NCBI RefSeq assembly: GCF_030067815.1
Contig: NZ_CP125968.1
Location: forward strand, 3,464,001 to 3,528,000
Source of the DNA: Sporosarcina thermotolerans
GTDB lineage: Bacteria; Bacillota; Bacilli; Bacillales_A; Planococcaceae
DNA length: 64,000 nt
Direction: 5' to 3'
This document shows positions 22,591-63,591 of this stretch, piece by piece. Position 1 is the first letter of the stretch, and each line of letters starts with the position of its first letter. The position numbers were made by a program, and so were the translations under genes. A model generated the notes under the pieces. It was not told where the DNA came from, ran no database searches, and saw only the letters and a list, made by a program, of their open reading frames with translations.

Positions 22591-22717
22591 GTTGATTGGA
22601 GTGGAAGGCGGCGACTCCTGCGGGATTAAGCGCGAATGGTGAGACCCCGCAGGAGCGAAGCGACGAGGAGGCTCACCCGCGCCCCGCGGAAAGCGTCCGC
22701 CTGGAACGGAAATCAAC
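22591..22717. repeat. GC-rich structured repeat common in Bacillales
   Basis: About 127 bp starting GTTGATTGGAGTGGAAGGCGG and ending CCGCCTGGAACGGAAATCAAC, with ends complementary and GACTCCTGCGGGA / CCCGCAGGAGCGAAG inside. Much more GC-rich than its surroundings. I recognise this as a dispersed element in many Bacillales genomes, of unknown function. It would fold into a long branched hairpin. Confidence 0.7.
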
Positions 22718-49061: not shown

Positions 49062-49073
49062 AAAGTTAAAAAC

Positions 49074-49120
49074 GGCACCAGGTTTTGGAACAGTTCCGAA
49101 TTCAATGAGAACATGGTATC
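49074..49120. repeat. family B hairpin repeat, copy 1
   Basis: GGCACCAGGTTTT...AGAACATGGTATC around a CCGAATTCAATG centre. 13 bases after the transporter stop; leftmost copy of the cluster. Confidence 0.8.
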
Positions 49121-49268
49121 CTAAATCCATGGAAGAACAAAACGAGACAGATAAATACCGATTACAACAATCTGAGTTTGTAGAGATTTCAAAAGGGCAC
49201 TGAGTGGCAATGCCTGTAAAATCGTTTTTGAGAGGCGCACCAATTACATTAACACTGGAGGGTTCACG

Positions 49269-49721
49269 ATGGGCATTAATAAAGTTACATTAATGGAAGC
49301 GTATATGATTGAAACAATCCGAAGCAATGGCATTTCAAATCAGGAATTGTTGACCCAACTTGAGAAAGAGAATAAAAGTGCTTGGGAATCCATCAATAAG
49401 AATTATAATTATGATGATTTAATCGCACTTTACAATCAAGATAAAAGTGCATTCAAATCTATTCTTACGGATGGATATAAAGTTAAATTCATTACCATAA
49501 GAGGGCTACAATCCCTTTTGGAAATGAAATTCAAAAAAATAGCTGAAGAAGATTATACTTTGACAGACAAGGGCATGGAACAGTTAAAAGTTACAAAAAC
49601 AGAATTAACAACGCTGAATCAGATTCTCTCAAAAAACTGGACCATTGAAGAATCACCTACAGATTTAGGAAATGATCAACTAAAAGAAATTAGCATACAA
49701 CTTGCATACTCACTCGCCTAA
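49269..49721 (+). CDS. uncharacterised 150-residue protein, paralogue of 20307-20768
   Basis: Same start MGINKVTLMEAYMIETIRSNG and the same GGAGGGTTCACG upstream as at 20307. Roughly 85 percent identical by eye, with a changed C-terminus (LAYSLA). Similarity of the two loci continues about 35 bases past the stop into the left arm of the terminator and then ends at a family A fragment. Function unknown. Confidence 0.6.
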   Translation: MGINKVTLMEAYMIETIRSNGISNQELLTQLEKENKSAWESINKNYNYDDLIALYNQDKSAFKSILTDGYKVKFITIRGLQSLLEMKFKKIAEEDYTLTDKGMEQLKVTKTELTTLNQILSKNWTIEESPTDLGNDQLKEISIQLAYSLA

Positions 49722-49761
49722 AGTGATGTGTTGAATGGAAAAGCAGTTTCCTGTCGTTTTT

Positions 49762-49828
49762 AAAGGTGCCTGTGTAGGAAAGAAAAAAGGTTCTAAAACA
49801 ATTCCGAATTCAATGAGAGCCTGGTACC
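49762..49828. repeat. family A fragment followed by family B copy 2 (left end truncated)
   Basis: AAAGGTGCCTGTGTAGG (49762-49778) is an A-type end. From 49788 AGGTTCT...AATTCCGAATTCAATGAGAGCCTGGTACC is a B copy lacking the left GGTACC. Confidence 0.65.
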
Positions 49829-49836
49829 CAAAAACT

Positions 49837-49876
49837 AACCCAACCCTTAATTTTTAAATTAAAGGTTGGGTTTTTT
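49837..49876. terminator. hairpin terminator
   Basis: AACCCAACC...TTAATTT pairs with AAATTAAAGGTTGGGTT, followed by six T. It serves the plus-strand gene at 49269. Confidence 0.75.
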
Positions 49877-50071
49877 AGATGATGATTATTGATAAGAATG
49901 ATTTTTTAAACCAAGAATATCCCTTGCTTCATCAAAGGTATTCATCCATTTCTTCTTTTCCGCAAAAGATATTGTCGGTTGTTGCCCATGATTATATGGT
50001 AATCGCCCTCGCATGCCAATTTCTATTCATTTTTTTATCCATGTTCAACTTGTGACTAACTTTACCTAAAT

Positions 50072-50607
50072 TTAATTTAATCGTTCGATACCAGTAATTT
50101 TCCACTTTCCCTCTATTTTGGATAAAGTGTATTTGGTTTTTTTTACTCCACCATTTTCGTAAGTAGCATGTGTAAGAACTGTTGCCTTGTTCCCATCTCT
50201 CTCTCTTCGGAAATAATTGTAAATGAATCAATCTCATATCTAATTTCATTTCGTGTATAGTATCTTGCATTTCTTAGTGTAACTTCAATCGAACTAATAT
50301 CTGCATCAACACTCAAGTACTTCATTGCTTCCCCAGTATTTGATACACGCGCATACTTCATGTATTTTCCAACTGCATTAGATGGCGTATTATTTAAATA
50401 AAAAGCTATAATAAAAACACCAAACACAATAAGCAAAACATAAAGTAATTTGCGCTTTTCTTGTTTCAATAATCTGGACTTTGTTTTCGGCTTAGTTTTT
50501 GAATCATTAATGTCTGTTATTACTTTAATTGGTTTACCACAATTACCACAAAAATTCGAGTTAGCAATTACTTCTTCTCCGCAATTAGTGCAATAGGTTG
50601 TTATCAT
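50072..50607 (-). pseudogene. zinc-ribbon membrane protein, frameshifted
   Basis: Zinc ribbon CTNCGEEVIANSNFCGNCG, a basic linker and one membrane helix (about residues 53-70), then a DUF4878-like external domain (AVGKYMKYARVSNTGEAMKYLSVD). The frame breaks near 50196 in a GA repeat; the other frame reads ERDGNKATVLTHATYENGGV and ends KWKITGIERLN at 50072. About 178 residues. Resembles the zinc-ribbon proteins at 923 and 7852 in design; ligand unknown. Confidence 0.6.
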
Positions 50608-51012
50608 AATAGTCTCCCAAACTCATATTAATTAGTTTAATAATAGGTACTATCTTCACATACATCCCCTTCCATGACCAGACAATTTATGACAACGACT
50701 CAGTACGATTTTTAACTGCTTATGTACGAATTATTAGTATCGGTGCTTGTGCATGCCAATTTAACACCAGTATTTATAAAATAAACCAACCGCTGTGGTG
50801 CGAGAGGTCGGTGCTAATTACTTGCCCTTACTCGATTTACAAATACTGAAACTCACCGACTATCCATCCGTTAACAGTATTTAAAAGGATGATTTTCTAT
50901 TTGAACCTCATAATCAGATCCTTCAAAGCTAATCAGGGTTGTCTGGTAATAAACCCATCATCAACTATAGAATAGACGGGTAACCCCCCCGGATTCTTCA
51001 TAAATTGGAAAA
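50608..51012. other. intergenic, no gene seen
   Basis: About 400 bases without a supported reading frame. No strong hairpin beyond the family B copy that follows. Confidence 0.4.
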
Positions 51013-51058
51013 GGTACCAGGTTCTAAAACAATTCCGAATTCAATGAGAACCTGGTAC
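51013..51058. repeat. family B hairpin repeat, copy 3
   Basis: GGTACCAGGTTCT...AGAACCTGGTAC with a nearly complete 13-bp stem, 9 bases from the next gene's stop. Confidence 0.85.
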
Positions 51059-51067
51059 TTGACACTA

Positions 51068-52061
51068 TTATTTATCGTTCCATAGAATATCCACGTAGGC
51101 GCCGTCCACTTCCGGAACGGTAATTCGCTCTCCTAATATGGATCCGTATGTTCTCAATCCTTTAACTGTTCCCCATAAAAAAATGATATCATCTTCGAGT
51201 ATTCTTTTATCTTTTTCGGTCATCGTGTAATTTACTAAAATAGTATCATCCCAAATACCATATCCTACATCCGTTACGTTTAATAGAAGGGTAAGTTTTT
51301 TTCCATCCTCTAAATTTTGCATAACCTTGGCATGTAACAACACTTTTGTTCCTATAAAAGAGTCAGGATCTCTTGCCAATTCGATATAATCTATTTCTAC
51401 AGCCGATGTTTTAAATTTCTCTTCGGCTAAAGCAGCGTTTTCTGCAGCTTCTTTCTTCGCTTGAGCTTCTTTTTCTGCTTTTTCTACTGCTGCTTTTTTA
51501 GCTTGGGCTTCTTTTTCGGCCTTTTCATTTGCTTTCGCATTTTCTGCAGCTTCTTTTTCTTCTCGCTTCGCCTTTTCTTTGGCCTCTTTCTTAGCCTTTT
51601 CTTCTGCTTCCTTCCTAACTTTGGATTCAGCCTTCTCCTTTTCTGTTACTGCTTCTTCAGCCTTTTCTTTTGCTTTCGCGTTTTCTGCGGCTTCTTTTTC
51701 TTCTTGCTTTGCCTTTTCTTTGGCTTCTTTCTTAGCCTTTTCCTTGGCTTCTTTTTCCGCTTTCTCTTCAGCCTCTTTCTTAGCTTTCTCTTCCTTCTTG
51801 GCTTTTTGTTCTGCCTGAGCAGCTGCCACCTCACTTGGTGTTGGGTCAGGAAGCGAAGCTCCATAGGTACCTAAGGAGACCATGAATACAATGAAAAATA
51901 CAAAAGACGATACCCCATAGTAAAGGAAGACCTTTCCTCGAGTTTTCTTTTTCTTGACTGCCCCAATACAAAACCAACTTCGGTTTAACAAGTCCTACTA
52001 TATTCATAACGAATGACACACACCATAGTAGGAAAAATATGAAAAATAATGCCAATGCCAT
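51068..52061 (-). pseudogene. membrane protein with Lys/Glu-rich coiled coil and OB-like C-terminus, frameshifted
   Basis: N-terminal MALALFFIFFLLWCVSFVMNI at 52061 starts a first helix; near 51960 one extra base moves the frame into KKKTRGKVFLYYGVSSFVFF-type second helix. Residues about 90-215 are a long coiled coil of Ala/Glu/Lys heptads (KAKKEAKEKAK). The C-terminus (VEIDYIELARDPDSFIGTKV...LHAKVMQNL...ILVNYT) looks like an OB fold of the tRNA_anti-like type. Such architecture occurs in Bacilli without known function. The internal repeats of the coiled coil may vary in length. Confidence 0.6.
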
Positions 52062-52293
52062 ATGCCGTTCCCCTATCTTCCAATAATTATAAAGTCTACC
52101 AGTTAAATTCTAATACTTTATCAGATAATAAGCTACAAAGTTATACAAACTAAAATATTTAAATTTCTTCATAACTTCTTTTATGTAATTAACTAATAGA
52201 AACACTATACATCTTGAAAAATAAGGATAGGTCCAACATATAAAATGAGCCACGCGATTTCCAATTATCAGGGAAGATAAAAGGATAATCGAC

Positions 52294-52399
52294 ATGGCTC
52301 AAAACAATCGTATAAAATATTAAAAAGTGGTTGAAGGACGATCACAAAGAGGTATTGCATCTAATCCGGGAATGTCAAGAAACGCTGTCCGGAAACACC
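52294..52399 (+). pseudogene. IS21-type IstA N-terminal remnant
   Basis: Reads MAQNNRIKY, stop, KVVEGRSQRGIASNPGMSRN-AVRKHL. This matches the helix-turn-helix start of IS21 IstA (repeat of -REIAR-GISRNTVRKYL). Only about 35 codons remain and it abuts the 3' end of the sigma-factor gene, so the insertion may have replaced that gene's C-terminus. Confidence 0.6.
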
Positions 52400-52409
52400 T
52401 AAATTTAAA

Positions 52410-52887
52410 CTACTTAATAGTTATCGTGAAACTTGTTTTTTTATCATCCTCAATAATATCCCGATATATCAAACCACTATATTCAATTTCAACACCTGTT
52501 CTTTCCCTACTCATTATCAACAGCCATTGCAACAATTTCCTATCATCTTCAGTTAACGATTCAACCGCATATCGAAGACGTTCACTTCCCCTTTGTCTCC
52601 TGCGTCATCTACCTCGATTAATTTTGTCAAAATCTCATCCTCAATTGGCATGAAACGCTGCTCAAAGCGGTTTGCCCTCTTCATTTCATCCATCATCGCA
52701 CCCGGATGTACCGATAAGCGAACGGTGCGAAATCCCCTTTTTCATATTCAAATCGTTCCCACGCAAGCCAGAGAGCCACCCTACCTGTTTGCCGGAATTG
52801 CTCATAATCGCGATAAATATTCAATTGACGCATACATGCAAAAATCATTGTTTCATACTTAACTAACACGTCTTCAAAATTCAACAC
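52410..52887 (-). pseudogene. sigma-70 family RNA polymerase sigma factor, frameshifted and possibly truncated
   Basis: GTG start at 52887. Region 2 is clear: MIFACMRQLNIYRDYEQFRQTGRVALWLAWERF and FAPFAYRYIRG. Two one-base losses in G runs (about 52703 and 52595) break the frame; repaired it continues AMMDEMKRANRFEQRFMPIE and SERLRYAVESLTEDDRKLLQWL. The C-terminus then differs from a usual region 4 and stops next to IS21 debris. Resembles YvrI-like sigma factors; divergent from comK. Confidence 0.6.
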
Positions 52888-53137
52888 TTGGTTGACCTTT
52901 CCGATCGTGCACGATTCAGTTTATTCCCGGGTAATTTCATCATAGAGGGAACGAACTATAGACACCAATGCGCATTTATGACGTTTGGCTTACTATACAT
53001 GGCATATGAGTAGGAGAAAGATGACCTTTTGTAGTCAATTTTTAAAACAAATATGTTTTTTCGTTATTTTTAGACTATTATTTTAAGAAACAATGATATA
53101 AAATAGAATGTGAAGTGATTATAAAGGAGGATATTGC

Positions 53138-53659
53138 ATGAAGGACGAAATTTCTCTATTCATTAGTCGAACTTTAGCTTTGAAATCTGTTCATTCAGGA
53201 AAGTACTTTTCCAAAATTATTACAATGGACGGAATCTACTTTTCAACACTAAAACCTATCGATTTACTGAACAAAGCATGCCTACGTCATCACTCATCAA
53301 AAGCCGGGCGAAAGGAGGCAGCCAAGGAACTTCTAAAGTACCGTCAGAAAACGCCATTTCTTATCTCTGATGAAGTGGGTGTGTTTCCAACGAATGGTTC
53401 AAAAAATCCCGATTGCATCTGGATTTTCAGTCACTTCTTCGATGCAAAACGACTGGACAGTAAGAACACATTACTTACCTTTAACAATGAAATTACCATT
53501 AACGTACCGGTATCTCTTTACACAGTCACTAAACAGAAAACGCGTCTACATACGCTACTCAGCCATGTTCAATATTCCAAAAACCAATACATATCCGAAC
53601 AGTCTTTGTTCGGCGTGAAGGAAGAACACACAAAATATGATACCGAATCCACCGATTAA
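53138..53659 (+). CDS. comK: ComK family competence transcription factor
   Basis: 173 residues. The ComK core is clear: ACLRHHSSKAGRKEAAKELLKYRQKTPFLISDE (ComK: RSCRFFGSSYAGRKAGTYEV), VGVFPTNGSKNPDCIWIFSHFF, and FNNEITINVPVSLYT. In B. subtilis ComK activates DNA-uptake genes by binding AT-rich A4-N5-T4 boxes. Good ribosome site AAGGAGGATATTGC. An AT palindrome AAAACAAATATGTTTT (53046-53061) upstream is a candidate autoregulatory site, though its spacing is not the textbook one. Intact. Confidence 0.85.
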   Translation: MKDEISLFISRTLALKSVHSGKYFSKIITMDGIYFSTLKPIDLLNKACLRHHSSKAGRKEAAKELLKYRQKTPFLISDEVGVFPTNGSKNPDCIWIFSHFFDAKRLDSKNTLLTFNNEITINVPVSLYTVTKQKTRLHTLLSHVQYSKNQYISEQSLFGVKEEHTKYDTESTD

Positions 53660-53773
53660 ACATTACATCATGATTTGAGGAGATTACAAAAGTAGTTAAA
53701 CACAGATCATATGAGACCCCAATTCTTTCTTCTCCGACAACAAAAATACCCAACATCAAGTAATTACAGATAT

Positions 53774-53789
53774 AAAAAAGGCATTACAG
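53774..53789. terminator. left arm of a terminator split by the IS3 element
   Basis: AAAAAAGGCATTACAG here pairs with CTGTAATGCCTTTTT at 55286-55300. Together they make a normal terminator hairpin, now separated by 1.5 kb. Confidence 0.55.
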
Positions 53790-53820
53790 TGATGTGACCC
53801 CTAAAAGTTAGAGTTTTATA

Positions 53821-54642
53821 TTACGCAGCTAATTGGCTGGTGTGAAGACGGTATTGAACCGGACTCATACCAGCCAGTTTCTGTTTGATCCGTTTGTTGT
53901 TGTAATACTGAATGTAAGCCTCGATATCACGTTTAAGTTCCTCGTATGTGCGCAGTGGTTCGCCATAATACATCTCCTGCTTAAGTAATCCAAAGAAATT
54001 TTCCATTGGGGCGTTATCCAGACAGTTTCCCTTCCGAGACATGCTCTGGAACACTTTATGTGTTTTTAAGGTCGCAACCCATTTTCCGTGCTGATAGTGC
54101 CAGCCTTGATCTGAATGGATGGTAGTCCGATATTTTGCGTTCTTTACGATTTCAAGGGCTTCCTCCAAAGGTTTCATCACAAAGTCGAGCGTCGGACGCA
54201 TACCGATGCCAAACGAAAGAATCTCCCCATTATACATATCCATCATTGGACTAAGATAGAGTTTTAGGCCATCTGAACACTTGAATTCTGTAATATCCGT
54301 AGTCAGCTTCTGATACGGGATTGTAGTCTTGAAACGGCGGTGAATACGGTTTTTCGCCACTTTGCCGATATTTCCCTTGTACGAACTGTAGCGACGAGAT
54401 TTTCTGGTGAACTTACTGCCTTTTAATCCTAACTTTCGCATAATGCGCTGCACCTTTTTATGATTGACTATGATACCACGATTCTTCAATTCAAGTTGAA
54501 TCCTGCGATATCCATAGTTTTCATTGTTCTTATCAAAAATGGTTTGAATCGTTTCCTCCAACTCTTCGTTGGGATTCTCCCGTTTCATTTGTTTTACATG
54601 ATAGTGATAAGATGACTCAGGAATTCCGACAATTAGAAGCAC
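53821..54642 (-). CDS. IS3-family transposase OrfB (DDE integrase)
   Basis: 273 residues from the listed start. The integrase core is intact: first Asp in TTDITEFKCSDGLKLYL, second Asp in IHSDQGWHYQH, Glu in NAPMENFFGLLKQEMYYG. The HTH_21-type N-terminus (EETIQTIFDKNNENYGYRRIQLELKNRG) is present. The frame is open upstream of the start and overlaps the end of OrfA in the -1 frame, so OrfAB is probably made by ribosomal slippage, as is usual in IS3. Confidence 0.88.
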   Translation of the reverse strand: MLLIVGIPESSYHYHVKQMKRENPNEELEETIQTIFDKNNENYGYRRIQLELKNRGIIVNHKKVQRIMRKLGLKGSKFTRKSRRYSSYKGNIGKVAKNRIHRRFKTTIPYQKLTTDITEFKCSDGLKLYLSPMMDMYNGEILSFGIGMRPTLDFVMKPLEEALEIVKNAKYRTTIHSDQGWHYQHGKWVATLKTHKVFQSMSRKGNCLDNAPMENFFGLLKQEMYYGEPLRTYEELKRDIEAYIQYYNNKRIKQKLAGMSPVQYRLHTSQLAA

Positions 54643-54647
54643 ATCCT

Positions 54648-55217
54648 TCAGTGTGAATTCTTCTTTGAGTTCGAATGATAACGCTGCTTGTGCTTTTCGA
54701 GATAGCCGTCCGGATCCATCTGAAAAGCTCGCAACTTTTTTAGGTATTCCACCTCCAAACGGAGGAGTTCATTTTCCCGTTCTAGTTTCTGTTCACGCGT
54801 CATTTCATTCTCTTGTGTTGGCTTCTGGTTCTTCTTAACATTCTTCGCTTTATCAGACATGACCGGCCGTCCTTTCGGATTGTCCAGGGCTTCCGCACCG
54901 CCATTGAGGAATTTCTTCTTCCAAACAGCGACCATCGGAGTGTTCGTCAATCCGAAGTGAAGAGCGGTATCTGCCAGTGAAGCGCCTGTCCTTTTCATAA
55001 AGTTTAATACATCCAACTTGAATTGAACAGAATAAATCGCGTCCCTTTTCTTACGAACCAATCCCTCCATACCAAACTTCTTATATGCGTTTACCCAATC
55101 CCTAACCTGTCTATTTGACTTTACACCATGTTTTTTCGCCAATCTCTCATATCCAATTGTTCCTTCGAGATATTCCCGCACCACCATCGCCTTAAAATCA
55201 TCTGTATATTTAACCAT
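54648..55217 (-). CDS. IS3-family transposase OrfA (helix-turn-helix)
   Basis: 189 residues. Two helix-turn-helix units (YLEGTIGYERLAKKHGVKSNRQVRDWV and FMKRTGASLADTALHFGLTN), then a coiled segment rich in Glu (EMTREQKLERENELLRLEVEYLKKL) used for dimerisation. The length fits IS150-group OrfA. It binds the element ends. Confidence 0.85.
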   Translation of the reverse strand: MVKYTDDFKAMVVREYLEGTIGYERLAKKHGVKSNRQVRDWVNAYKKFGMEGLVRKKRDAIYSVQFKLDVLNFMKRTGASLADTALHFGLTNTPMVAVWKKKFLNGGAEALDNPKGRPVMSDKAKNVKKNQKPTQENEMTREQKLERENELLRLEVEYLKKLRAFQMDPDGYLEKHKQRYHSNSKKNSH

Positions 55218-55531
55218 AATAAAACACCCCGAAAGTTAGATTTTTGACTCTAACTTTTGGGGTGCACTTCACAGTCCACGTATGTCTGTAATGCCTTTTT
55301 ACGTTATAATTCTCCAATAAATCAACTTTCTAATAACAAATTTCCTCACACTGTAACGGTCAAGTAGAATTGATCAATTTTCCACAATTAGCTTGACCAC
55401 CCTTTAGGTAAATAGGGTCTGTCTATATTTCATACGATGACTTGGATCGGACAGTATTAGATTACTTCGCTTCGATGGAGATGCCTGTCTAAAATGGCAG
55501 TAGTAAACATATATGGATTTGGTACTCGAAA
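55218..55531. other. right end of IS3 and non-coding sequence
   Basis: After the IS end come the right arm of the split terminator (55286-55300) and a stretch resembling 20830-20860 (CTTTCTAA-AA-AAATTTCCTCA). This supports shared origin of the flanks of the two GNAT genes. No gene seen. Confidence 0.45.
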
Positions 55532-55582
55532 TTCTTGAGCGCAAGACCATTTTCTTGAGCGTGGATAACGTGTTCTTGAGCG
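55532..55582. repeat. short tandem repeat (TTCTTGAGCG, 20-21 bp period)
   Basis: TTCTTGAGCG begins at 55532, 55552 and 55573. Period and style recall the 21-bp array at 11597-11827, but the core differs. Confidence 0.55.
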
Positions 55583-55590
55583 CGGATAAG

Positions 55591-55636
55591 TGTACCAAGT
55601 TCCCAAACACTCCGAATTCAATGAGAACTCTGGTAC
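55591..55636. repeat. family B hairpin repeat, copy 4
   Basis: TGTACCAAGTTCC...CCGAATTCAATGAGAACTCTGGTAC, diverged. Confidence 0.7.
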
Positions 55637-55749
55637 TCATAGGTATATGGGGGTGCAAAATTGAGATTTAAGATGATTGAGGAAGCTACAGGGAGATCAA
55701 TGCAACGGTGAGCCGGCAATCAGGACACTGGTAAAACTTAAATTCAAAA

Positions 55750-55820
55750 GTTTTATTATTTCCATCCTATAAACAGTGGAATTGAAGCTAATATCTATGT
55801 CGTTTTGCCGGTTCGTACCT
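55750..55820. repeat. family C dispersed repeat, copy 2
   Basis: Near-identical to 39398-39470 (TATTTCCATCCTATAAAC, GAATTGAAGCTAATATC, TCGTTTTGCCGGTTC). A degenerate family B copy follows at 55840-55876. Confidence 0.65.
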
Positions 55821-55890
55821 ACTGAATATTGATAGTGAATGGTCCCAGGTTCAAGGAGAACCTCGAATTCATTGAGTGCATAAGACCCAA

Positions 55891-56454
55891 TCAGATATGT
55901 TTCACCATATGATGGAATGGTTCGCCGATGATTGTCCAGGGAGAAACAATTTCGTAGCCAAGTCGTTTGTAAAGCCGGATTGCTGGATCTTTTTGTGTTT
56001 CGACATTTAAGGCTAATCGGGTGTAACCTTGCTGCTTCGCAAGTTCTTCTACGAAAATGAATAATTGAGTTCCGATTCCTTTGCCACGAAAAGTTGGAGA
56101 GATACAAACGGTGTCGATATACAATTCCCCCGGTAATGATTCTGCATCGATTTCAGGATTTAGGGCACCTTTTTCCATCAGCCAATTCGTCAAATTACGA
56201 TCAAGGACAGGAGCATCATCACCTGGATACAAGACGATAATGCCCACCATGTCTGCGTTAATCTCCGCAATATATGTATACAGATAGGAGTGCCGGTTGT
56301 CATTTCGCATGAATAGCTCACGTAATCTATCTGTAACCATTTCTACCTCAGTTGCCCCTGTTAGCCGATTGGCGATGTCACCAATTGCATCGACAATTAG
56401 CGGGACGACTTTATCCGCATCTGTCGGTAAGGCGGGTCTAATTTGGATACTCAA
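55891..56454 (-). CDS. GNAT family N-acetyltransferase (copy 2, intact)
   Basis: About 187 residues from the TTG at 56454, 9 bases after AAAGGAG; the upstream TTG at 56460 is less well spaced. N-terminal SIQIRPALPTDADKVVPLIV, beta-strand YTYIAEINADMVGIIVLYPG, acetyl-CoA loop FRGKGIGTQLFIFVEELA, and C-terminal LYKRLGYEIVSPWTI. Closely related to the broken copy at 20907-21469. Substrate unknown. Confidence 0.82.
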   Translation of the reverse strand: MSIQIRPALPTDADKVVPLIVDAIGDIANRLTGATEVEMVTDRLRELFMRNDNRHSYLYTYIAEINADMVGIIVLYPGDDAPVLDRNLTNWLMEKGALNPEIDAESLPGELYIDTVCISPTFRGKGIGTQLFIFVEELAKQQGYTRLALNVETQKDPAIRLYKRLGYEIVSPWTIIGEPFHHMVKHI

Positions 56455-56493
56455 TTTCAAAATCTCCTTTTGGTCATTTGTCCTTTTACTATA

Positions 56494-56528
56494 TCAAAAA
56501 AACAACCCAATGTTTTACGCATTGGGTC
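56494..56528 (-). terminator. terminator upstream of the GNAT gene
   Basis: ACCCAATG and CATTGGGT arms, followed on the minus strand by TGTTTTTTT. It would stop transcripts from the YfbU gene to the right. Confidence 0.75.
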
Positions 56529-56569
56529 GTTTCTTAAATACCGATGCTGCTATAACGTTTCTATAAAAC

Positions 56570-56609
56570 GGTTCTAAGGCAATTCCGAACTCAGTGAGAG
56601 CCTGGTACC
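56570..56609. repeat. family B hairpin repeat, copy 6
   Basis: GGTTCTAAGGCAATTCCG...GAGAGCCTGGTACC; the left GGTACC is lost. Confidence 0.7.
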
Positions 56610-56638
56610 GAAATCATATCCCAATGGCAAGATTCATT

Positions 56639-57157
56639 TTATCGTTCTTCCACAATACGGATTATTTCATCACGATTTAATTCTTGTTTTCTGTTTACTG
56701 TAGTCCAGGCGGACAGCATGCGTCTATAGGAATCCAACATTGGTATGAAGCTATTGAAAAAAGCCCACTCCTCGCCATATTTTAATTCTTCGAATCTGTT
56801 CAAATCCATAATGAAATAATGAGTGTAAGATAATCTTTTACTTTCTTCCTCATCATTCTCACTGAAACCATTAAATTTTATTGATTCCATAGTTATTCCA
56901 CTTTTATCCTCTAACTTTTCAAATGAGTAGGTTAGTGCGCGGTACATGCTAAGTATGTCCAATACTTCCCGGCACTCATCTTCGGTCAATTCAACTGGGC
57001 TTAAACTTTCAAATGCACCGTTATAATGAAGGCTATACCCTTCCTCTAAAGCTTTTCGATTTAATTCGTAGTTCTTTTTCTCTTTTGGATAAAGCCCCTC
57101 TAAAATTTTAAATTGATTCGACAGCATTAATCTTTCAAATTTCGTCAATTTCATCAT
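56639..57157 (-). CDS. YfbU family protein
   Basis: About 172 residues from the ATG at 57157 (GGGAG 5 bases upstream). LTKFERLMLSNQFKILEGLYP and DECREVLDILSMYRALTYSF match the N-terminal and central parts of E. coli YfbU, and SYRRMLSAWTTVNRKQELNRDEI the end. YfbU has an alpha-helical fold and no settled function. Monocistronic between two family B repeats. Confidence 0.8.
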   Translation of the reverse strand: MMKLTKFERLMLSNQFKILEGLYPKEKKNYELNRKALEEGYSLHYNGAFESLSPVELTEDECREVLDILSMYRALTYSFEKLEDKSGITMESIKFNGFSENDEEESKRLSYTHYFIMDLNRFEELKYGEEWAFFNSFIPMLDSYRRMLSAWTTVNRKQELNRDEIIRIVEER

Positions 57158-57359
57158 TTTCACTCCCTATCTGATATACTTCGCCAAAAAAGGTGAAAAT
57201 CCTCCTGCATACTATGGTGCAAATGACTAACCCGGATTAGAACTTAAACTCCATCCTCATTATCAATAGCCCACTATCTGGTGCATCTTTTGTTTCCGAA
57301 TACCCCATAAACGTAAGTGTTCCTCTGATATTTGTTCCCTTTAGGGTTACGTTGTGAAA

Positions 57360-57406
57360 GGTACCAGGTTCTGGAGCAATTCCGAATTCAATGAGAACAT
57401 GGTACC
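57360..57406. repeat. family B hairpin repeat, copy 7
   Basis: GGTACCAGGTTCT...AGAACATGGTACC, stem 13 bp with one mismatch. Confidence 0.85.
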
Positions 57407-57451
57407 GAAATTCCGGGAAGTAAAATTACTGCAAAATCGATCGTGGTTATT

Positions 57452-57682
57452 CTATAAATTATATTTCTTCATCAACGCTTCAGCCTCTTTTATTCCTGCA
57501 TCCGTCAAATAGACGGATTTGGAGCGCTTGCTTCTACGTAACCAATCTTCCTCGGACAATGCATCCATCGCGTAAAAAGGATAGCCTTTCCAGCTCCTTC
57601 TCAACCCATCCGGATATTCATCCTCTTCCCATGATGTCAAATAAAGCAGCAATAATGTCAATTCCTTAATCTTTTTCTCCAT
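57452..57682 (-). CDS. DUF6429-like small protein (copy 1)
   Basis: 76 residues: KIKELTLLLLYLTSWEEDE, RRSWKGYPFYAMDALSEEDWL, RSKSVYLTDAGIKEAEALMKKY. The Tyr-Leu-Thr-x-x-Gly-Ile-x-x-Ala pattern is a small winged helix; similar proteins are listed as DUF6429. About 90 percent identical to 58554-58799. Ribosome site AAAGGGG. Possibly DNA-binding; function unknown. Confidence 0.7.
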   Translation of the reverse strand: MEKKIKELTLLLLYLTSWEEDEYPDGLRRSWKGYPFYAMDALSEEDWLRRSKRSKSVYLTDAGIKEAEALMKKYNL

Positions 57683-57696
57683 AAAATTAGCCCCTT

Positions 57697-57939
57697 TCAG
57701 TAATCCCTTGGTAAAAAAATGGTACCAGGGTCCAGAACAATTCGGAGTTCAATGAGAATCTGGTACCGACAATCTGCTGATTCAAAAAGAGTAGCTGTTT
57801 CATCGAAGCCACGGGTTACCCGTCCTTCTAAAACATCCAACTTTCTATTTACTTCTGAAAGTTGCTTTTTCACATCTGCAAAACCCTTTTCCATGTTATT
57901 TTTCATCATTGTTAAGAAATCCATCAGTTCTTTGTCCAT
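57697..57939 (-). CDS. small coiled-coil protein whose C-terminus comes from a family B repeat
   Basis: ATG at 57939 after AGGGGTGATTCGG. Residues 1-55 (MDKELMDFLTMMKNNMEKGF, KKQLSEVNRKLDVLEGRV) form a short coiled coil common in small Bacilli proteins. The last ~24 residues (ILIELRIVLDPGTIFLPRD) are encoded by the family B copy at 57721-57767 read in the minus direction. The repeat seems to have inserted into the 3' part and supplied a new end. Confidence 0.55.
   Translation of the reverse strand: MDKELMDFLTMMKNNMEKGFADVKKQLSEVNRKLDVLEGRVTRGFDETATLFESADCRYQILIELRIVLDPGTIFLPRDY
57721..57767. repeat. family B hairpin repeat, copy 8
   Basis: GGTACCAGGGTCC...AGAATCTGGTACC; inside the 3' end of the gene at 57697. 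Confidence 0.8.
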
Positions 57940-58019
57940 CCGAATCACCCCTATTAGGGTAAGTATAAATTTTTTTAAAAAGAAAGAAAGAAGCACTGGA
58001 TTTAAGCTGATGTTTTTTA

Positions 58020-58107
58020 AAGTAACAGGTTCCGGAACGATTCCGAATTCAATAAAAAAAGGTGCCAGGTTCTGGAACAATTCCGAATTCAATGAGAACC
58101 TGGTACC
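58020..58107. repeat. family B hairpin repeats, tandem partial and full copies (9a, 9b)
   Basis: 58020-58052 carries AGTAACAGGTTCCGGAACGATTCC..., missing its right arm. 58061-58107 is a full copy GGTGCCAGGTTCT...AGAACCTGGTACC in the same orientation. Confidence 0.8.
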
Positions 58108-58119
58108 GAAATTATTTCC

Positions 58120-58518
58120 ATGGTATCTTTTACAAAACGCAGCACATTTAAAGTCGACTTAGATTATCGTAAAATCGCATCTAACGAAATTATTGTTTAT
58201 GACATCGAGTTATCAGAGTTTATCCATCGGAAAGTCTCGGTGTTGAAAATTCATCATAAAGAACCTCTGCTCTCTGAAAGTGACATTTTAACAATTTTCA
58301 ACGCCTTTTCAAAAGGAAATATTACTGATCCAAAAGCGAGAGAGGATCATAACCGTCTATTAATTACACATGTTTCAGAAAAAAAGACTATCACAAGCTC
58401 TACTTGTTTAGTTTGTAATAAACCTGTTTCAGATAAGGTTAAAGCGTATTGTTTATCAAACGATAGATTCAAAGGGAAGATCTATTGTTATGACCATCAG
58501 AAGATAGTTCAGAAATAA
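58120..58518 (+). pseudogene. C-terminal remnant resembling a NERD-type nuclease-related protein
   Basis: 132 residues that begin right after the family B copy 9b. DILTIFNAFSKGNITDPKAREDH followed by a CLVCNKPVSDKVKAYCLSN-type zinc-binding pair resembles the C-terminal part of NERD-domain proteins. The catalytic N-terminal domain is absent, and no good ribosome site is seen, so I read it as a truncated gene. Assignment tentative. Confidence 0.45.
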
Positions 58519-58525
58519 AAAAAAC

Positions 58526-58572
58526 GGTACCAGGTTCTAAATCAATTCCGAATTCAATGAGAACCTGGTATC
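58526..58572. repeat. family B hairpin repeat, copy 10
   Basis: GGTACCAGGTTCT...AGAACCTGGTATC; overlaps the 3' end of the next gene, changing its last residues. Confidence 0.85.
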
Positions 58573-58799
58573 AAATTATATTTCTTCATCAACGCTTCAG
58601 CCTCTTTTATTCCTGTATCCGTCAAATAGACGGATTTGGAGCGCTTGCTTCCTCGTAACCAATCTTCCTCGGACAATGCATCCAACGCGTCAAAAGGATA
58701 GCCTTTCCAGCTCCTTCTCATCCCATCGGGAAATTCATCCTCTTCCCATGATGTCAAATAAAGCAGCAATAATGTCAATTCCTTGATTTGTTTATCCAT
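58554..58799 (-). CDS. DUF6429-like small protein (copy 2)
   Basis: 81 residues, nearly the same as 57452-57682 (KQIKELTLLLLYLTSWEEDE, RSKSVYLTDTGIKEAEALMKKY) and with the same ribosome site. The last residues (IPGSH) are read into the family B repeat. The pair arose by local duplication; the NERD-like remnant lies between. Confidence 0.7.
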   Translation of the reverse strand: MDKQIKELTLLLLYLTSWEEDEFPDGMRRSWKGYPFDALDALSEEDWLRGSKRSKSVYLTDTGIKEAEALMKKYNLIPGSH

Positions 58800-58868
58800 A
58801 AAAATAGCCCCTTTCAGTAATCTCTTGGCGGGTGGTTAGACATATGAGGGAGGCCGAGTGAACTGTAC

Positions 58869-58914
58869 CATACCAGGTTCTGGAACAATTTAGAATTCAA
58901 TGAGAACCTGGTAC
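58869..58914. repeat. family B hairpin repeat, copy 11
   Basis: ATACCAGGTTCTGG...AGAACCTGGTAC. Confidence 0.8.
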
Positions 58915-58971
58915 TTGAAATTATGTCGGGTCCATTTAAAAAAGAGGCAGCAATGAGGCTGAATTATAAAA

Positions 58972-59018
58972 GGTACCAGGTTCCGGAACAATTCCGAGTC
59001 CAATGAGAACCTGGTACC
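58972..59018. repeat. family B hairpin repeat, copy 12
   Basis: GGTACCAGGTTCC...AGAACCTGGTACC, 57 bases from copy 11 and in the same orientation. Confidence 0.85.
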
Positions 59019-59480
59019 CTAAATGATGTTCGAATTTTTTCATCGAGTCGTAAGGCTAACTTTTTTTCTCAAGAGAGACGGATGTTTTTGTATCATGGCA
59101 GGTAGTCGTCGAGTAGAGTCGGACCCTGCTGGAAGTTCAGGTTTGGAAGTTCCTCCAACAGTTTCTGTAGTTAGGCATAAAAATCAATACCGTGGATTTT
59201 ATCCGTTTCGGAGGTCTTCAAAATGAAATAGTATTGCGGCAAATATGATAAGTATAAAATCCGTGACAATAACAATAACTTGGAGACTTATTGGACGTCC
59301 CCTCTACTACTTTATAAACTTTTTCAATGCCCTTAGTAAGGCGTCTTTTTTTCTTCGTGCAGTTGACCCATACTTGCGAGGTGTATTTTATCAATAGACT
59401 TTCAATTGACTGCGACTTAAAGATGATTGCCCTTTAATGCTTACCGTCCTTGAATAAACTGAAAAAAAGGAGGTGTAAAA
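59019..59480. other. intergenic, possible short coding remnant and terminator
   Basis: 59100-59220 reads GSRRVESDPAGSSGLEVPPT then VSVVRHKNQYRGFYPFRRSS in one frame, which may be a fragment of an unknown gene. A weak hairpin with a T run (about 59328-59352) may be a terminator. A likely sporulation promoter for the next gene should lie near 59400, but I cannot define it. Confidence 0.3.
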
Positions 59481-60092
59481 ATGTGTAGCAATAATCATAT
59501 AAATTGCGGTTGTTTAAAATTTAATAAAAAAGGCACACTTGGGCCTTTTGAAGCGATTGACGTAGAAAATATTCCCGCACCAACAGTTAACACAGGTTCA
59601 TTACCCATGATCCCATTCGCTTCCGGCGTTACAGGGGTTTTTTTAACAACAACCGCTGCAGGAGTGAGTGGCGAGTTATATGAGATAGGATTTGGTAACT
59701 CGAATTTTACATTGGCCCTTCCAGACGGTGATATTCCCTCAAATCTAATAACAGAAGCTTTTTCTGTAACACGAGCAGGTAGTATTACAGCGATTTCTGC
59801 AGCCTTCACTACAGTGTCAATTTTCGTGCCGCTTGCAGGAACAGTTACAGTTAGAGCACAAGTTTACCGTGCAGCTAAAGGTAGTAATGTATTCACCCCA
59901 ACAAACGCATTTGTTGATATAGTCCCAATAGCTATGGGAACTATTGCTAGAGCACTTAAGATCGTTACTCCACCAGTCCTAGTGGAAGCTGGTGATCTAT
60001 TAGTAATGGTGTTCTCGGCTAGCGCAACAGGAGCTGGTGATTTAACCAATAGTTTTTTTGGTAGTGCAAGTGCGGGTATCACTTTAGAATAG
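59481..60092 (+). CDS. exosporium glycoprotein BclB-related protein
   Basis: 203 residues. An N-terminal leader-like part with Cys and GPFEAIDVENIPAPTV is followed by a beta-rich domain: LPMIPFASGVTGVFLTTTAAG, YEIGFGNSNF, AFSVTRAGSITAISAAFTT, VRAQVYRAAKGSNVFTPTN, LLVMVFSASATG. This is the C-terminal domain of BclB-type exosporium proteins (TNF-like trimer fold), without the collagen-like repeats. Excellent ribosome site AAAGGAGGTGTAAAA. Supports a spore-forming host; probably on the spore surface. Confidence 0.8.
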   Translation: MCSNNHINCGCLKFNKKGTLGPFEAIDVENIPAPTVNTGSLPMIPFASGVTGVFLTTTAAGVSGELYEIGFGNSNFTLALPDGDIPSNLITEAFSVTRAGSITAISAAFTTVSIFVPLAGTVTVRAQVYRAAKGSNVFTPTNAFVDIVPIAMGTIARALKIVTPPVLVEAGDLLVMVFSASATGAGDLTNSFFGSASAGITLE

Positions 60093-60235
60093 TTATTCGA
60101 TACGAATTCAATGCTAATGATCTTTTGTCAAGAATGTGTTCACAGTGAACGGTACCCACTGGTGTTGCGTGGAATACAAAGACTTCCATTTATTACTTTT
60201 TTTACCATATTGGTCTTCGAACTAAAATTAAAAAA

Positions 60236-61580
60236 GGGAACAGGAGCCTAAGCTAAACCAGTTCCCATTTTTTTACTATTTTATTGGTTGTTGTTTCTTG
60301 TTCTTTTCTAATGCCTTTTTCTTCTTCTTTTTCAATGAAATGGTCTTTATCTATTGGGCTGGCAATTGCAACGTCTCCATATTGAAGTAATTTTTCCTTT
60401 GTTTTAGGCACTTTCTGACGCCCTTTACTCTTCCTTTTCTTTCGATTTAGGTAGCTTAAAATCTTTCTTATCGATTTGAAAAGATACGGTTTTAAATTAC
60501 TGAAAAGGGTCCAAAGGGTCCTTTTCGGCAAATGGATAAGCCGCATAATTTCAGTCAATGCGACTGTAATTAACGCAATATACATTTGGTTCCAGATGCC
60601 TATAGGCGATTTGCTGAATAGATGATCTATCTTAACATGTTGCTTCAACCACTTGAAGAAAAGCTCGATATAACAACGGTTTCTATAGGCTTCCATGATT
60701 TCTTCCTCAGACAAATCCAAACGATTTGTTAGAAGATGAAAGTGTGTTCCTTTGTCATCAACGAACTCGATATATCGAAGAGGCTCTTCCCTAGTCAAGA
60801 TGGATACCAATTCATTTCTCAACACGTTTTCCTGGGTTGGTGCGTAGGATTTCAAAGTTTCCATACTGAAATTCTTCCCTGCACGAACAAGGAAATGAAC
60901 TTTCCTTTCCATCCATCCGCCCATCTTCGTTTTGTGCGCATAGCCACGATCCATGATGTATAAAGCGCCATCCGCATCAATAATGTGGTTTACTGCATCT
61001 GAGTCCGCTACATTTCCTGTGGATGGAATCATTTTTTCGGGATAAACGCTATTGGCTGATGCCACAACGATCCGGACATGTAACTTGATTCCGGCGGAAT
61101 CTTTGGAAACTGCAGTCCAACTTAATGCATCTGAAGGCAGTTTCACATAGGTACCATCGATGATACGAATTGGTCCGACATTCGCATTTAAACCTTTGGT
61201 ATCGCCCTTTATCCGCCAAAATAGTACAGCCAAACGAGAGAAAAGTTCCACTAAATGTGCTGTATTTAATTGAATAAGTCGCCGACTAATTTGGGAGTGA
61301 CTAATGAAATCCGTTTCAATTTCTTTTTGGAATTCTGGCTCTGCTTGAATCCCAGCCTCAATTTGGCGGTGGCTTTTCCACTGCGCAACATTTGCCATGA
61401 TAAAGACTTTCACAATCGAGAAATCAGTAATCTTTTTTGCATCGTAGTTCATTATCGGACATGCTAAAATATTTTCGGGTAAATTTGATAATAGTTGACG
61501 AAAGACTAAATTCTGGTTTACACTTTTCATGAGAGTGCTCCTTTTGATAGTGTAGGGAACTGATTTAGTCGTCGTTTCCT
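60236..61580 (-). mobile_element. IS4-family insertion sequence
   Basis: One transposase gene flanked by related ends containing CAGTTCCC (60259-60267 and, inverted, 61554-61562). The left end can also form a GGGAAC/GTTCCC terminator hairpin. Borders approximate; target duplication not identified. Confidence 0.6.
60253..61530 (-). CDS. IS4-family transposase
   Basis: 425 residues from the ATG at 61530 (AAGGAGCACTCTC); the longer frame upstream lacks a site. DDE core: Asp in IRIIDGTYVKLP, Asp in LYIMDRGYAHKTK, and the Y-(2)R-(3)E-(6)K motif in YRNRCYIELFFKWLKQH. An N-terminal DUF4372-like part (FRQLLSNLPENI) is present. Complete and possibly active. Confidence 0.88.
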   Translation of the reverse strand: MKSVNQNLVFRQLLSNLPENILACPIMNYDAKKITDFSIVKVFIMANVAQWKSHRQIEAGIQAEPEFQKEIETDFISHSQISRRLIQLNTAHLVELFSRLAVLFWRIKGDTKGLNANVGPIRIIDGTYVKLPSDALSWTAVSKDSAGIKLHVRIVVASANSVYPEKMIPSTGNVADSDAVNHIIDADGALYIMDRGYAHKTKMGGWMERKVHFLVRAGKNFSMETLKSYAPTQENVLRNELVSILTREEPLRYIEFVDDKGTHFHLLTNRLDLSEEEIMEAYRNRCYIELFFKWLKQHVKIDHLFSKSPIGIWNQMYIALITVALTEIMRLIHLPKRTLWTLFSNLKPYLFKSIRKILSYLNRKKRKSKGRQKVPKTKEKLLQYGDVAIASPIDKDHFIEKEEEKGIRKEQETTTNKIVKKWELV

Positions 61581-61678
61581 TACCTACATTAGGAGCTTTT
61601 TTGTTTTTCTGCAAGTTTTCAATTTCAAGTTATTATGCTATTTTACTATTTTTTACAGCTATGCAACGCCAGTGAACG

Positions 61679-61723
61679 GTACCAGGTTCTGGAACAATTC
61701 AGAATTCAATGAGAACCTAGCAC
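61679..61723. repeat. family B hairpin repeat, copy 13
   Basis: GGTACCAGGTTCT...AGAACCTAGCAC, next to the IS4 right end; a further GGTACC trace follows at about 61753. Confidence 0.8.
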
Positions 61724-61810
61724 TTGAAATTCATTCTAAGTTTACTAAGAGCCCGGTACCCAACAAAAAAGCCCTTTCAGCACACAAAGGACTCCCAAGC
61801 CATAAAATAA

Positions 61811-62137
61811 TTATGCTTTTTCTCGATGATTATTTTCATCAAACTTTATCTTTCCGGCCAATTTTTCTTTAGACAAGATCTTAGATAAATTTTCAATTAC
61901 ACCTATGTTAATACCTTGCTTGTAAAAATTGTCCGGGTCGAGGTCAAGTTCTTCTGGCCAGCTAACTGTTTCAAGCTCCGGGTCAACAAACACCTGTTTA
62001 AAGAACTCAGAGTCCTTAAGTTTTTCCAGTATACCTTTCATATGAGGCTTAATATCAACAATTTTCTGTTCTTCGTTGTCAAAGGTGATATATAGCCAGC
62101 CGTCAGGAAGTGGTTTTACCGATTTGACTAAAACCAT
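61811..62137 (-). CDS. DUF2442 domain protein
   Basis: 108 residues. VKSVKPLPDGWLYITFDNEEQKIVDIKP and FKQVFVDPELETVSWPEELDLDPDNFYKQG are the DUF2442 pattern. Such proteins are commonly encoded next to DUF4160 proteins and are thought to be the antitoxin-like or DNA-binding partner. It lies 87 bases after the DUF4160 gene. Confidence 0.82.
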   Translation of the reverse strand: MVLVKSVKPLPDGWLYITFDNEEQKIVDIKPHMKGILEKLKDSEFFKQVFVDPELETVSWPEELDLDPDNFYKQGINIGVIENLSKILSKEKLAGKIKFDENNHREKA

Positions 62138-62224
62138 TTTAACACCTCCTCAGTAGAGTGGTGGAATTTTGTTGGGTGCTTTCCCATCACGGCAATCGTT
62201 CCACCCTTTCATAATATCATCTCG

Positions 62225-62419
62225 CTATTTTTCCAGCCACTTTATCACATCTTTTTCCTTACTTGAAGGTAGTGGGCTATCCCCCTTTAGGTATTGCCCA
62301 GTTGCAATTTCAATTCTCGTTTTATACTCCCCAACAATATGAAAATGTGGCGGGTCATGATCGTTGTAATATAGCACTATTATAATGCCACCAAATTTAC
62401 TTATTCTAGGCAACAACAT
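62225..62419 (-). CDS. DUF4160 domain protein
   Basis: 64 residues from the ATG at 62419 (AGAAGGTGGTGT upstream), the usual family start MLLPRISKFGGIIIVLYYND-HDPPHFHI. The HxxPHFH metal-like cluster is complete. Predicted toxin-like partner of DUF2442. The longer frame upstream overlaps the RAYT gene and is not needed. Confidence 0.8.
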   Translation of the reverse strand: MLLPRISKFGGIIIVLYYNDHDPPHFHIVGEYKTRIEIATGQYLKGDSPLPSSKEKDVIKWLEK

Positions 62420-62447
62420 ACACCACCTTCTAGTATATGACAAAAAT

Positions 62448-63025
62448 TCAGCGAGACTCTGACAACTCCTCCCCCCTTTCCCTACAATACCTCGCATACT
62501 CCCTCCCCGTCTTTTCCCAACCAACAGGCAATAAGGACGGCAATAACTTCAGATCCAAAAACGCATGGGGGCTTTTCTGTTCATAAAAATAATATTGATA
62601 AGATGAGTAGCGATATTGTTCCATCGAATCAACCATCGGCTCTTTCGTTTCAATCGGGTTCCTATGTATATACGATCCAACATTCAATAAACCAATTGGA
62701 TCGACAATCTCTTTTGAGTAATACCTGTTTTGATAGATTTGACCAACATAGTTGTATTTTTTACGGTAATAGTCACTGTACCGACGATTAAGACGCATCA
62801 TGATTTTCCCAAGTGGAACGATAGGTGAACGCATCAGCAAGTGGACGTGGTTGGACATGATACAATACGCATACAATTCGAATGGGTATTTGCTATTTAC
62901 AAAGTTCAGGTTCCTAAAATATTCATACATATCTCGTTCAGTATTGAATATGTTCTGTCGATTGTTGCCCGGACAATGATGTGATAAAAGCCGTTCGGAT
63001 GCCAATCCCTCTTCTTATTAGCCAC
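62448..63025 (-). pseudogene. REP-associated tyrosine transposase (RAYT, Y1_Tnp), one-base frameshift
   Basis: HUH-type single-strand transposase. YCIMSNHVHLLMRSPIVPLGKIMMRLNRRYSDYY contains the HVH metal motif; the catalytic Tyr is expected in IYQNRYYSKEIVD, followed by GSYIHRNPIETK. The N-terminus is in another frame: a GTG at 63025 gives MANKKRDWHPNGFYHIIVR, and one G missing from the C run 62968-62970 separates it from GNNRQNIFNTERDMYEYFRNL. About 192 residues when repaired. The GTG overlaps the end of a ComM remnant and has no clear ribosome site. Sits among family B hairpins at 61679 and 63485. Confidence 0.8.
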
Positions 63026-63179
63026 CAACAACCATCAATATCCGGTCCTTCGATTCTTTCATCGGAGCATCCGGCAATCCGATAATAACACAAGCCTCTT
63101 TCTCATCCCGTACATTCGCCTCCACCATCACTCTATGCCCTTTCATCCCCTCCAGCCCAACGCTCAATACATAGCCCAC
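63018..63179 (-). pseudogene. ComM/YifB N-terminal remnant
   Basis: About 53 residues: YVLSVGLEGMKGHRVMVEANV and CVIIGLPDAPMKESKDRIL are the start of ComM/YifB Mg-chelatase-like ATPases (usual IVGLPDASVKESKERV). It should run to about 500 residues but stops where the RAYT gene begins. GTG start after GGGGTGAGGTT. Confidence 0.65.
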
Positions 63180-63209
63180 AACCTCACCCCATATCTTTTC
63201 CCACACCAT

Positions 63210-63421
63210 ACAGTAAACTGACTTTTACGTAAACTTTCTAAAAAGGAGAATAATGAGGATTTGAGGGGTTTTGGGGAATAATTATTTATATCGACAGATT
63301 CAAAATTAACGACAAATCCAATAAACATGCGGTTTATTGAATTAAATGAGGGTTATGCAAAATTTCTTTTTTGGGTAGAAGGTTTTTTGTATTTTTCCAT
63401 ATTCATTCTGAACTTAGCATC
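63210..63421. other. intergenic
   Basis: AT-rich, with a small hairpin CAATAAAC/GTTTATTG near 63318-63338. No supported gene. Confidence 0.4.
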
Positions 63422-63464
63422 AAAAAAAGATTCCATAAGCGTAATTCGCCCCGGAATCTTTTTC
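63422..63464. terminator. hairpin terminator
   Basis: AAAAAAGATTCC and GGAATCTTTTT arms with an 18-base loop; A and T runs make it usable from both sides. Confidence 0.65.
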
Positions 63465-63484
63465 ATATTAAAAACGGTAAAAAC

Positions 63485-63531
63485 GGCACCGTATTATGGA
63501 GCAATTCGGAATTCAGCGAGAACCTGGTATC
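63485..63531. repeat. family B hairpin repeat, copy 14
   Basis: GGCACCGTATTAT...AATTCGGAATTCAGCGAGAACCTGGTATC, diverged left arm; rightmost copy. Confidence 0.7.
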
Positions 63532-63591
63532 CTAAATTCCTTTAGAAACATAAGACAACCATTAGCTTGAATAGAATGATAGGAAAGCGAT

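Follow-up and report, generated by a model that had tools for sequence, protein, structure and literature searches.

Hairpin repeats around a RAYT-class transposase gene in Sporosarcina keep a near-fixed orientation relative to replication

The genome of Sporosarcina thermotolerans is a single 3.66-Mb contig, and a 64,000-nt stretch of it (NZ_CP125968.1, positions 3,464,001 to 3,528,000; hereafter the window) holds a cluster of 14 short hairpin units at 49070-63536, of which 13 are full-length (55-81 bits) and one is truncated (17.9 bits), together with a gene for a RAYT-class Y1/HUH transposase (Table 1). An earlier note, made from the sequence alone, had described about 15 units of about 47 bp in 14.5 kb; the cluster is real, with a count of 14 and a unit of about 60 nt. 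The note had seen no copy at 18-49 kb, and our covariance model agrees, with no match at E ≤1 in the window outside the cluster. It had also placed a RAYT-type Y1/HUH transposase inside the cluster, and the gene indeed lies between the last two units, 61674 and 63481. Two findings are new, namely that the orientation of the units is near-fixed relative to replication and that the units are enriched at joints between homologous blocks.

Each unit is one asymmetric hairpin of about 60 nt with 13-bp arms (GGTACCAGGTTCT / AGAACCTGGTACC), a 21-nt asymmetric loop and GGTACC ends. The loop is conserved instead of being the variable center that had been supposed, and in an alignment of 40 copies about 60 positions are conserved, with conservation ending on either side. 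The core CAATTCCGAATTCAATGAGAACCTGGTA has 12 matches in the window at ≤3 mismatches, all on the + strand, and none in 100 shuffles; the exact left arm occurs at four places in the window and the exact right arm at two. Single-strand folding, a check that the earlier note had proposed, gave a divided answer: four of six units fold at -11 to -16 kcal/mol (z -4 to -7), whereas units 61674 and 63481 are decayed and have lost the fold. For 14 chosen units from several sub-families, stem pairing is kept in 95% of stem cells, and double-sided changes fill 10 cells versus 4.6 in shuffles, confined to three pairs and with nine of the ten cells at two of these. Within the main family, stem changes are mostly one-sided decay. 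Rfam at its gathering threshold gave no match in the window. In two units (L081:6477 and L078:4752) loop and outer flanks seem, by eye, to run in opposite senses, which an inversion of the loop between the arms would produce.

Whole-genome searches, followed by reading of the matched stretches, gave 60 units in S. thermotolerans (47 at ≥40 bits) and 36 in Sporosarcina highlanderae (29 at ≥40 bits; genome G061), with two large clusters and isolated units in each. In S. thermotolerans the cluster of the window extends beyond it to approximately 3.546 Mb, a second large cluster lies at 1.43-1.62 Mb, and single or paired units lie at 1.08, 2.40, 2.52 and 3.19 Mb. At least one match at E 0.001 is present in 20 of 36 other genomes of the genus and in 0 of 24 from other genera, in searches whose filters drop some weak matches and which count some units on both strands. 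In an exact-pattern scan of named genomes S. highlanderae was the sole match. Six of the 76 units with ≥40 bits in the two genomes lie inside open reading frames.

We inferred replication direction from GC skew and dnaA, which lies at 0.488 Mb; in 20 sampled stretches the skew changes sign at 0.4-0.6 and 2.2-2.4 Mb, although a few of them have a skew close to zero or of contrary sign. The - strand carries the units at 1.08-1.62 Mb and the + strand those at 2.40-3.55 Mb, apart from 1439273 and 1580568, both weak. Across S. thermotolerans and S. highlanderae, all 76 units with ≥40 bits, in 10 segments, have one orientation relative to local GC skew, and 18 of the 20 weaker units follow it. Counted by segment, the majority orientation fits in 7/7 segments of S. 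thermotolerans and 5/5 of S. highlanderae, although two of these 12 agreements (1.08 Mb and G061 C1) depend on weak units. In the congeners, 38 main-family units with ≥40 bits were listed, of which 30 agree, five lie at a skew <0.03 and three disagree (G002 L082:6460, G006 L163 at C15:77857, and the G032 unit upstream of a decayed RAYT). Neighboring genes are divided in direction, with 30 in the same and 46 in the opposite direction on the 5' side of units and 25 and 51, respectively, on the 3' side.

A comparison of S. thermotolerans with S. highlanderae, with the units masked, yielded 102 homologous blocks of ≥80 bp. Unit edges coincide with block ends more often than in the intergenic control (300 controls): 22 of 192 edges lie ≤5 bp from a block end (control mean 1.68, maximum 6), and 27 of 192 lie ≤15 bp from one (mean 4.84, maximum 13). 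Orientation relative to local skew is kept by 95 of the 102 blocks, some of which represent plain synteny. At 2.397 Mb synteny with S. highlanderae starts at 2397459, after a unit ending at 2397457. An 809-bp segment at 1.08 Mb is separated by 10 bp from a weak unit (31.6 bits) and stands in a different order in S. highlanderae; in G031, for the part of the region compared, that segment lies 5 kb from a neighbor that it also has in S. highlanderae. Empty and filled sites, which the earlier note wished to see compared, did not bear out clean insertion. A homologous flank extends up to 62 of the 96 units (50 one-sided, 12 two-sided), and none of these 62 is a clean insertion in the partial genome sequences compared, target duplications not having been looked for; likewise, none of 10 isolated units has a contiguous empty site in seven whole relatives. 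Clean insertion of the kind made by miniature inverted-repeat transposable elements is thus not seen in either comparison. Of 24 units that have a homologous flank, 22 lack a counterpart at that point in the other genome; unit 63481 is probably common to both. The left flank of the unit at 3194340 (L014:11341) is homologous in six of seven relatives until 5 bp before the unit and, by eye, holds a candidate cut flagellin gene.

The transposase of the window carries the PF01797 Y1 domain (46.3 bits; cut-off 23) with the motifs NHVH and YIHRNP, but misses the cut-off of 80 of the NCBIfam RAYT equivalog NF047646 (61.7 bits), as does the S. highlanderae protein (68.4 bits). The latter is an open copy of 194 amino acids, 94% identical to the window RAYT, whose own frame is interrupted near the start. 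In S. highlanderae the RAYT gene overlaps the 3' end of a comM/YifB-type gene (TIGR00368, 405.5 bits versus 362.4), and such pairing recurs in the genus: among 36 congeners 13 comM loci exceed the Pfam cut-off, of which 10 adjoin a RAYT match and one (G004) a RAYT remnant. On the RAYT tree the linkage to comM is scattered instead of confined to one clade, with seven changes; it is no more clustered than in shuffles, of which 100 of 500 gave a number as low, and would fit repeated loss. Unit matches are higher in the 11 genomes with comM than in the 25 without (rank p = 0.007, uncorrected for kinship). ComM is reported to have a role in branch migration (PMC11612176).

The link between RAYT and hairpins proposed in the earlier note is supported in part. 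In G032 a decayed RAYT, in pieces 79-90% identical to that of the window, has units on either side in inverted orientation, and some other RAYTs of Bacilli have hairpin families of their own. Among 14 loci scanned, the RAYTs of G022 and G047 have such families on either side, the terminal repeats of G047 carrying a GGGGWSAS motif (GGGGTCAG); in a four-locus scan hairpins were both-sided at G022, more weakly so at the second RAYT of G032 and at G012, and not so at G021. The identity as REPINs, in contrast, is ruled out by structure (one asymmetric hairpin per unit) and orientation (array units point one way). A GTAG-type REP is likewise ruled out by the missing GT[AG]G foot, given that GTAG directly precedes the unit start in 1 of 66 units, the commonest context being TAGT (9/66).

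Table 1 Features of the hairpin cluster in the window (positions are those of the window).
Feature	Position	Strand	Score (bits)	Remark
Hairpin unit	49070..49125	+	70.4	
Hairpin unit	49778..49833	+	74.5	Degraded left arm
Hairpin unit	51009..51064	+	78.6	
Hairpin unit	55587..55642	+	57.8	Block end 3 bp from right edge
Hairpin unit	56559..56614	+	55.1	Degraded left arm
Hairpin unit	57356..57411	+	79.7	Block end 2 bp from left edge
Hairpin unit	57717..57772	+	70.2	
Truncated unit	58017..58056	+	17.9	Without 3' arm
Hairpin unit	58057..58112	+	81.1	
Hairpin unit	58522..58577	+	75.4	
Hairpin unit	58865..58920	+	70.6	
Hairpin unit	58968..59023	+	78.6	
Hairpin unit	61674..61729	+	74.2	Poor fold now
DUF2442 protein	61811..62137	-		Adjoins DUF4160 gene
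DUF4160 / DhiT-like protein	62225..62524	-		Within block common to S. highlanderae
RAYT-class Y1/HUH transposase	62448..63005	-		NHVH and YIHRNP; frame interrupted near codons 21-23 versus open S. highlanderae copy
comM/YifB-type AAA+ ATPase gene, first 48 codons	63036..63179	-		Rest not found in window
Hairpin unit	63481..63536	+	62.4	Fold lost; probably common to S. highlanderae (G061 C11:60037)

Other features lie within or close to the arrays. The DUF2442 and DUF4160 (DhiT-like) gene pair of the window, at 61811-62524, stands between a hairpin unit and the RAYT, and in S. highlanderae the DUF2442 frame extends into a hairpin unit (L036:988-1308). A 256-bp segment is duplicated in the window at 57456-57711 and 58573-58828 (95% identical), both duplicates beginning ≤50 bp from the end of a hairpin unit, and a further relative, recognized by eye, comes after the unit at 3528362. 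A tandem run of a AACTTCCCATAGAAG-like motif, also seen by eye, directly follows the unit at 1085961 (L097). A different palindrome, AGGAAAGGAGA..TCTCCTTTCCT, occurs twice in one array (L006:1521-1564 and L006:15211-15254), and another, CTCCTGCGGG..CCCGCAGGAG at 22615-22655 of the window, possibly represents another repeat family. A separate interspersed repeat of approximately 150 bp is found in S. thermotolerans at 1070735-1070884 and 1071900-1072034 (L108) and in L135, with at least five copies in one stretch of G031. Inside cluster B, an IS605-type element (L003:1501-3006) has a broken TnpA and an open 386-aa frame resembling TnpB. This TnpA remnant with TnpB and two IS200 copies were weighed as drivers of the units and set aside, as nothing tied them to the units in an analysis that did not extend to comparing their ends, or those of the IS3 and IS4 elements of the window, with the units.

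We consider it an even call that a RAYT-class HUH transposase has the hairpins as its mobile-end repeats, which are moved as single-stranded DNA and joined to adjacent DNA. The repeat family, its near-fixed orientation, its enrichment at joints and the pairing of comM with RAYT are observed, whereas movement of the units by the RAYT, a single-stranded intermediate and participation of ComM are inferred. The hairpins would be terminal-inverted-repeat- or REP-like mobile ends of an enzyme whose gene often follows that of a ComM/YifB-type helicase in this genus. The RAYT would act on folded single-stranded DNA, most plausibly at the lagging-strand template, so that unit orientation would be fixed relative to the fork; the strand-locked orientation would then be the expected trace of a single-strand HUH mechanism. 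Units would not land cleanly but become joined to, and travel with, neighboring DNA, and the outcome would be oriented integron-like arrays in which segments are shuffled and many joints carry hairpins. Either transport of flanking DNA by the enzyme or subsequent recombination between repeats could have made the joints, and both readings begin with the same step. ComM as a helper is suggested by gene order.

Several observations weigh against this mobile-end reading. With an interrupted RAYT in the window genome and a decayed one in G032, movement may be past, and none was observed. The window RAYT has no close inverted flanking units, both neighbors being on the + strand. The earlier note expected copy number to track the RAYT and took equal abundance in relatives lacking it as refutation; for any RAYT (match at E 1e-8, the G004 remnant not counted) abundance is indeed equal, with a mean of 2.5 matches in 21 RAYT-positive and 2.3 in 15 RAYT-negative congeners (p = 1.0 and 0.99; the four-copy threshold in the copy-number test was picked after the counts were known, and the rank test is independent of it). 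Of the 20 congeners with units 12 have a RAYT, as do 9 of the 16 without; the two genomes richest in copies, for their part, do carry the close RAYT lineage. The presence of comM does not predict that of units (p = 0.28, 36 congeners): comM and RAYT occur with none of these units in G008, G021 and G022. In G006, and in broken form in G002, comM stands without a RAYT match. In the 14-unit stem alignment two stem pairs carry the covariation, and the pairs showing double changes are no more numerous than in shuffles (three versus 2.4). Only 38 of 408 block ends are located at a unit, and therefore the units do not account for most breaks in the scrambled regions. In G012, six units with a stem of another sub-family all lie on the + strand at positive skew (three at 0.026), contrary to the main rule; counted by the strand of the model, which is less certain for them because both strands score nearly alike, they bring the congener tally to 30 of 36 agreeing and eight unclear. 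Finally, units in one array are perhaps not independent events and may have common origins.

Somewhat less probable, yet a serious contender, is an account in which the RAYT placed single hairpins one way long ago and later homologous recombination between the 60-bp direct repeats deleted, duplicated and re-inserted DNA, leaving the joints as recombination scars. The array units are direct repeats, many of them decayed, the RAYT is interrupted, and the shuffling preserves orientation, as expected between equally oriented repeats. However, the units differ at several positions over 60 bp, which is little for homologous recombination; no clean, unrecombined insertion remains among the 62 testable units, and the other genome mostly lacks a unit at the point where a homologous flank meets one. 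A bolder form of the mobile-end reading, which we hold to be rather unlikely, is a two-protein shuttle in which the RAYT-class HUH nuclease and the ComM-type branch-migration helicase would move hairpin-bounded segments as single-stranded DNA into the lagging-strand template, so that oriented integron-like arrays would form on both replication arms with no site-specific recombinase involved.

That the units are passive structural elements (terminators, or nucleoid- or fork-related signals) with orientation kept by selection is improbable: near-fixed orientation relative to replication and a position mostly outside open reading frames would suit such a role, but copies decay and lose the fold, the units lie largely in variable regions, and 16 of 36 congeners have no match at E 0.001. 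Chromosomal integrons hold small segments, shuffled and equally oriented, in arrays where hairpins separate them, and their attC sites carry a GTTRRRY box. It is scarcely credible that the arrays here are integron-like cassette arrays with the hairpins as attC-like sites of a tyrosine recombinase, for although uniform orientation, arrays of small genes and shuffled segments with block ends at hairpins are shared, the arrays have no integrase (six PF00589 matches in the genome, none within 1.43-1.62 or 3.51-3.55 Mb), the unit consensus has no attC box because its GTT precedes C, and the units form arrays at several separate regions on both replication arms.

Described systems share some of these traits; the publications cited for them were available in part, and statements about them refer to those parts. 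TIRYT/TIRtron elements combine a Y1/HUH enzyme bearing NHVH and Y---NP with inverted terminal repeats, some self-complementary, in moderately abundant families (Di Nocera and co-workers 2013, PMC3733652; Quentin and co-workers 2018, subclass 2.1, PMC6006769). The YIHRNP of the window fits the Y---NP signature of class 2 (PMC6006769), and the protein and its flanking hairpins appear to fit the TIRYT/RAYT class, the units being neither GTAG REPs nor REPINs; in contrast to TIRYTs, the hairpins here are GGTACC-ended, lack the GGGGWSAS motif of some TIRYT repeats and occur in Bacillota. The available parts of the two TIRYT accounts describe no fixed replication orientation, joints or comM partner. 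With REP/REPIN-RAYT systems (Nunvar 2010, PMC2817692; Bertels and Rainey 2011, PMC3116915) the units share short dispersed palindromes, a RAYT gene and the inverted pair around the G032 RAYT, but they have no GT[AG]G foot and no inverted doublets, and their orientation is uniform. The nearest earlier hint of the latter is that REP tandem arrays are oppositely oriented on the two sides of the SBW25 genome (PMC3116915). IS608 and ISDra2 of the IS200/IS605 family transpose as single strands into the lagging-strand template (PMC6006769), whereas here there is no autonomous element, only hairpin units with other DNA joined to them. A literature search with little reach into subscription journals found nothing describing this system.

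To our knowledge, what RAYTs and their repeats do is largely open. The asymmetric unit allows the inserted strand to be read, which a symmetric REPIN does not permit, and the orientation result makes lagging-strand, single-stranded mobility of REP-like repeats testable from genome data alone. Being tied to shuffled segments and to a ComM-type helicase, the units point to a possible route of gene mixing that is neither integron nor classical transposon. Their orientation and their frequent position at joints suggest that single-stranded DNA moving at replication forks helps gene shuffling in these bacteria.

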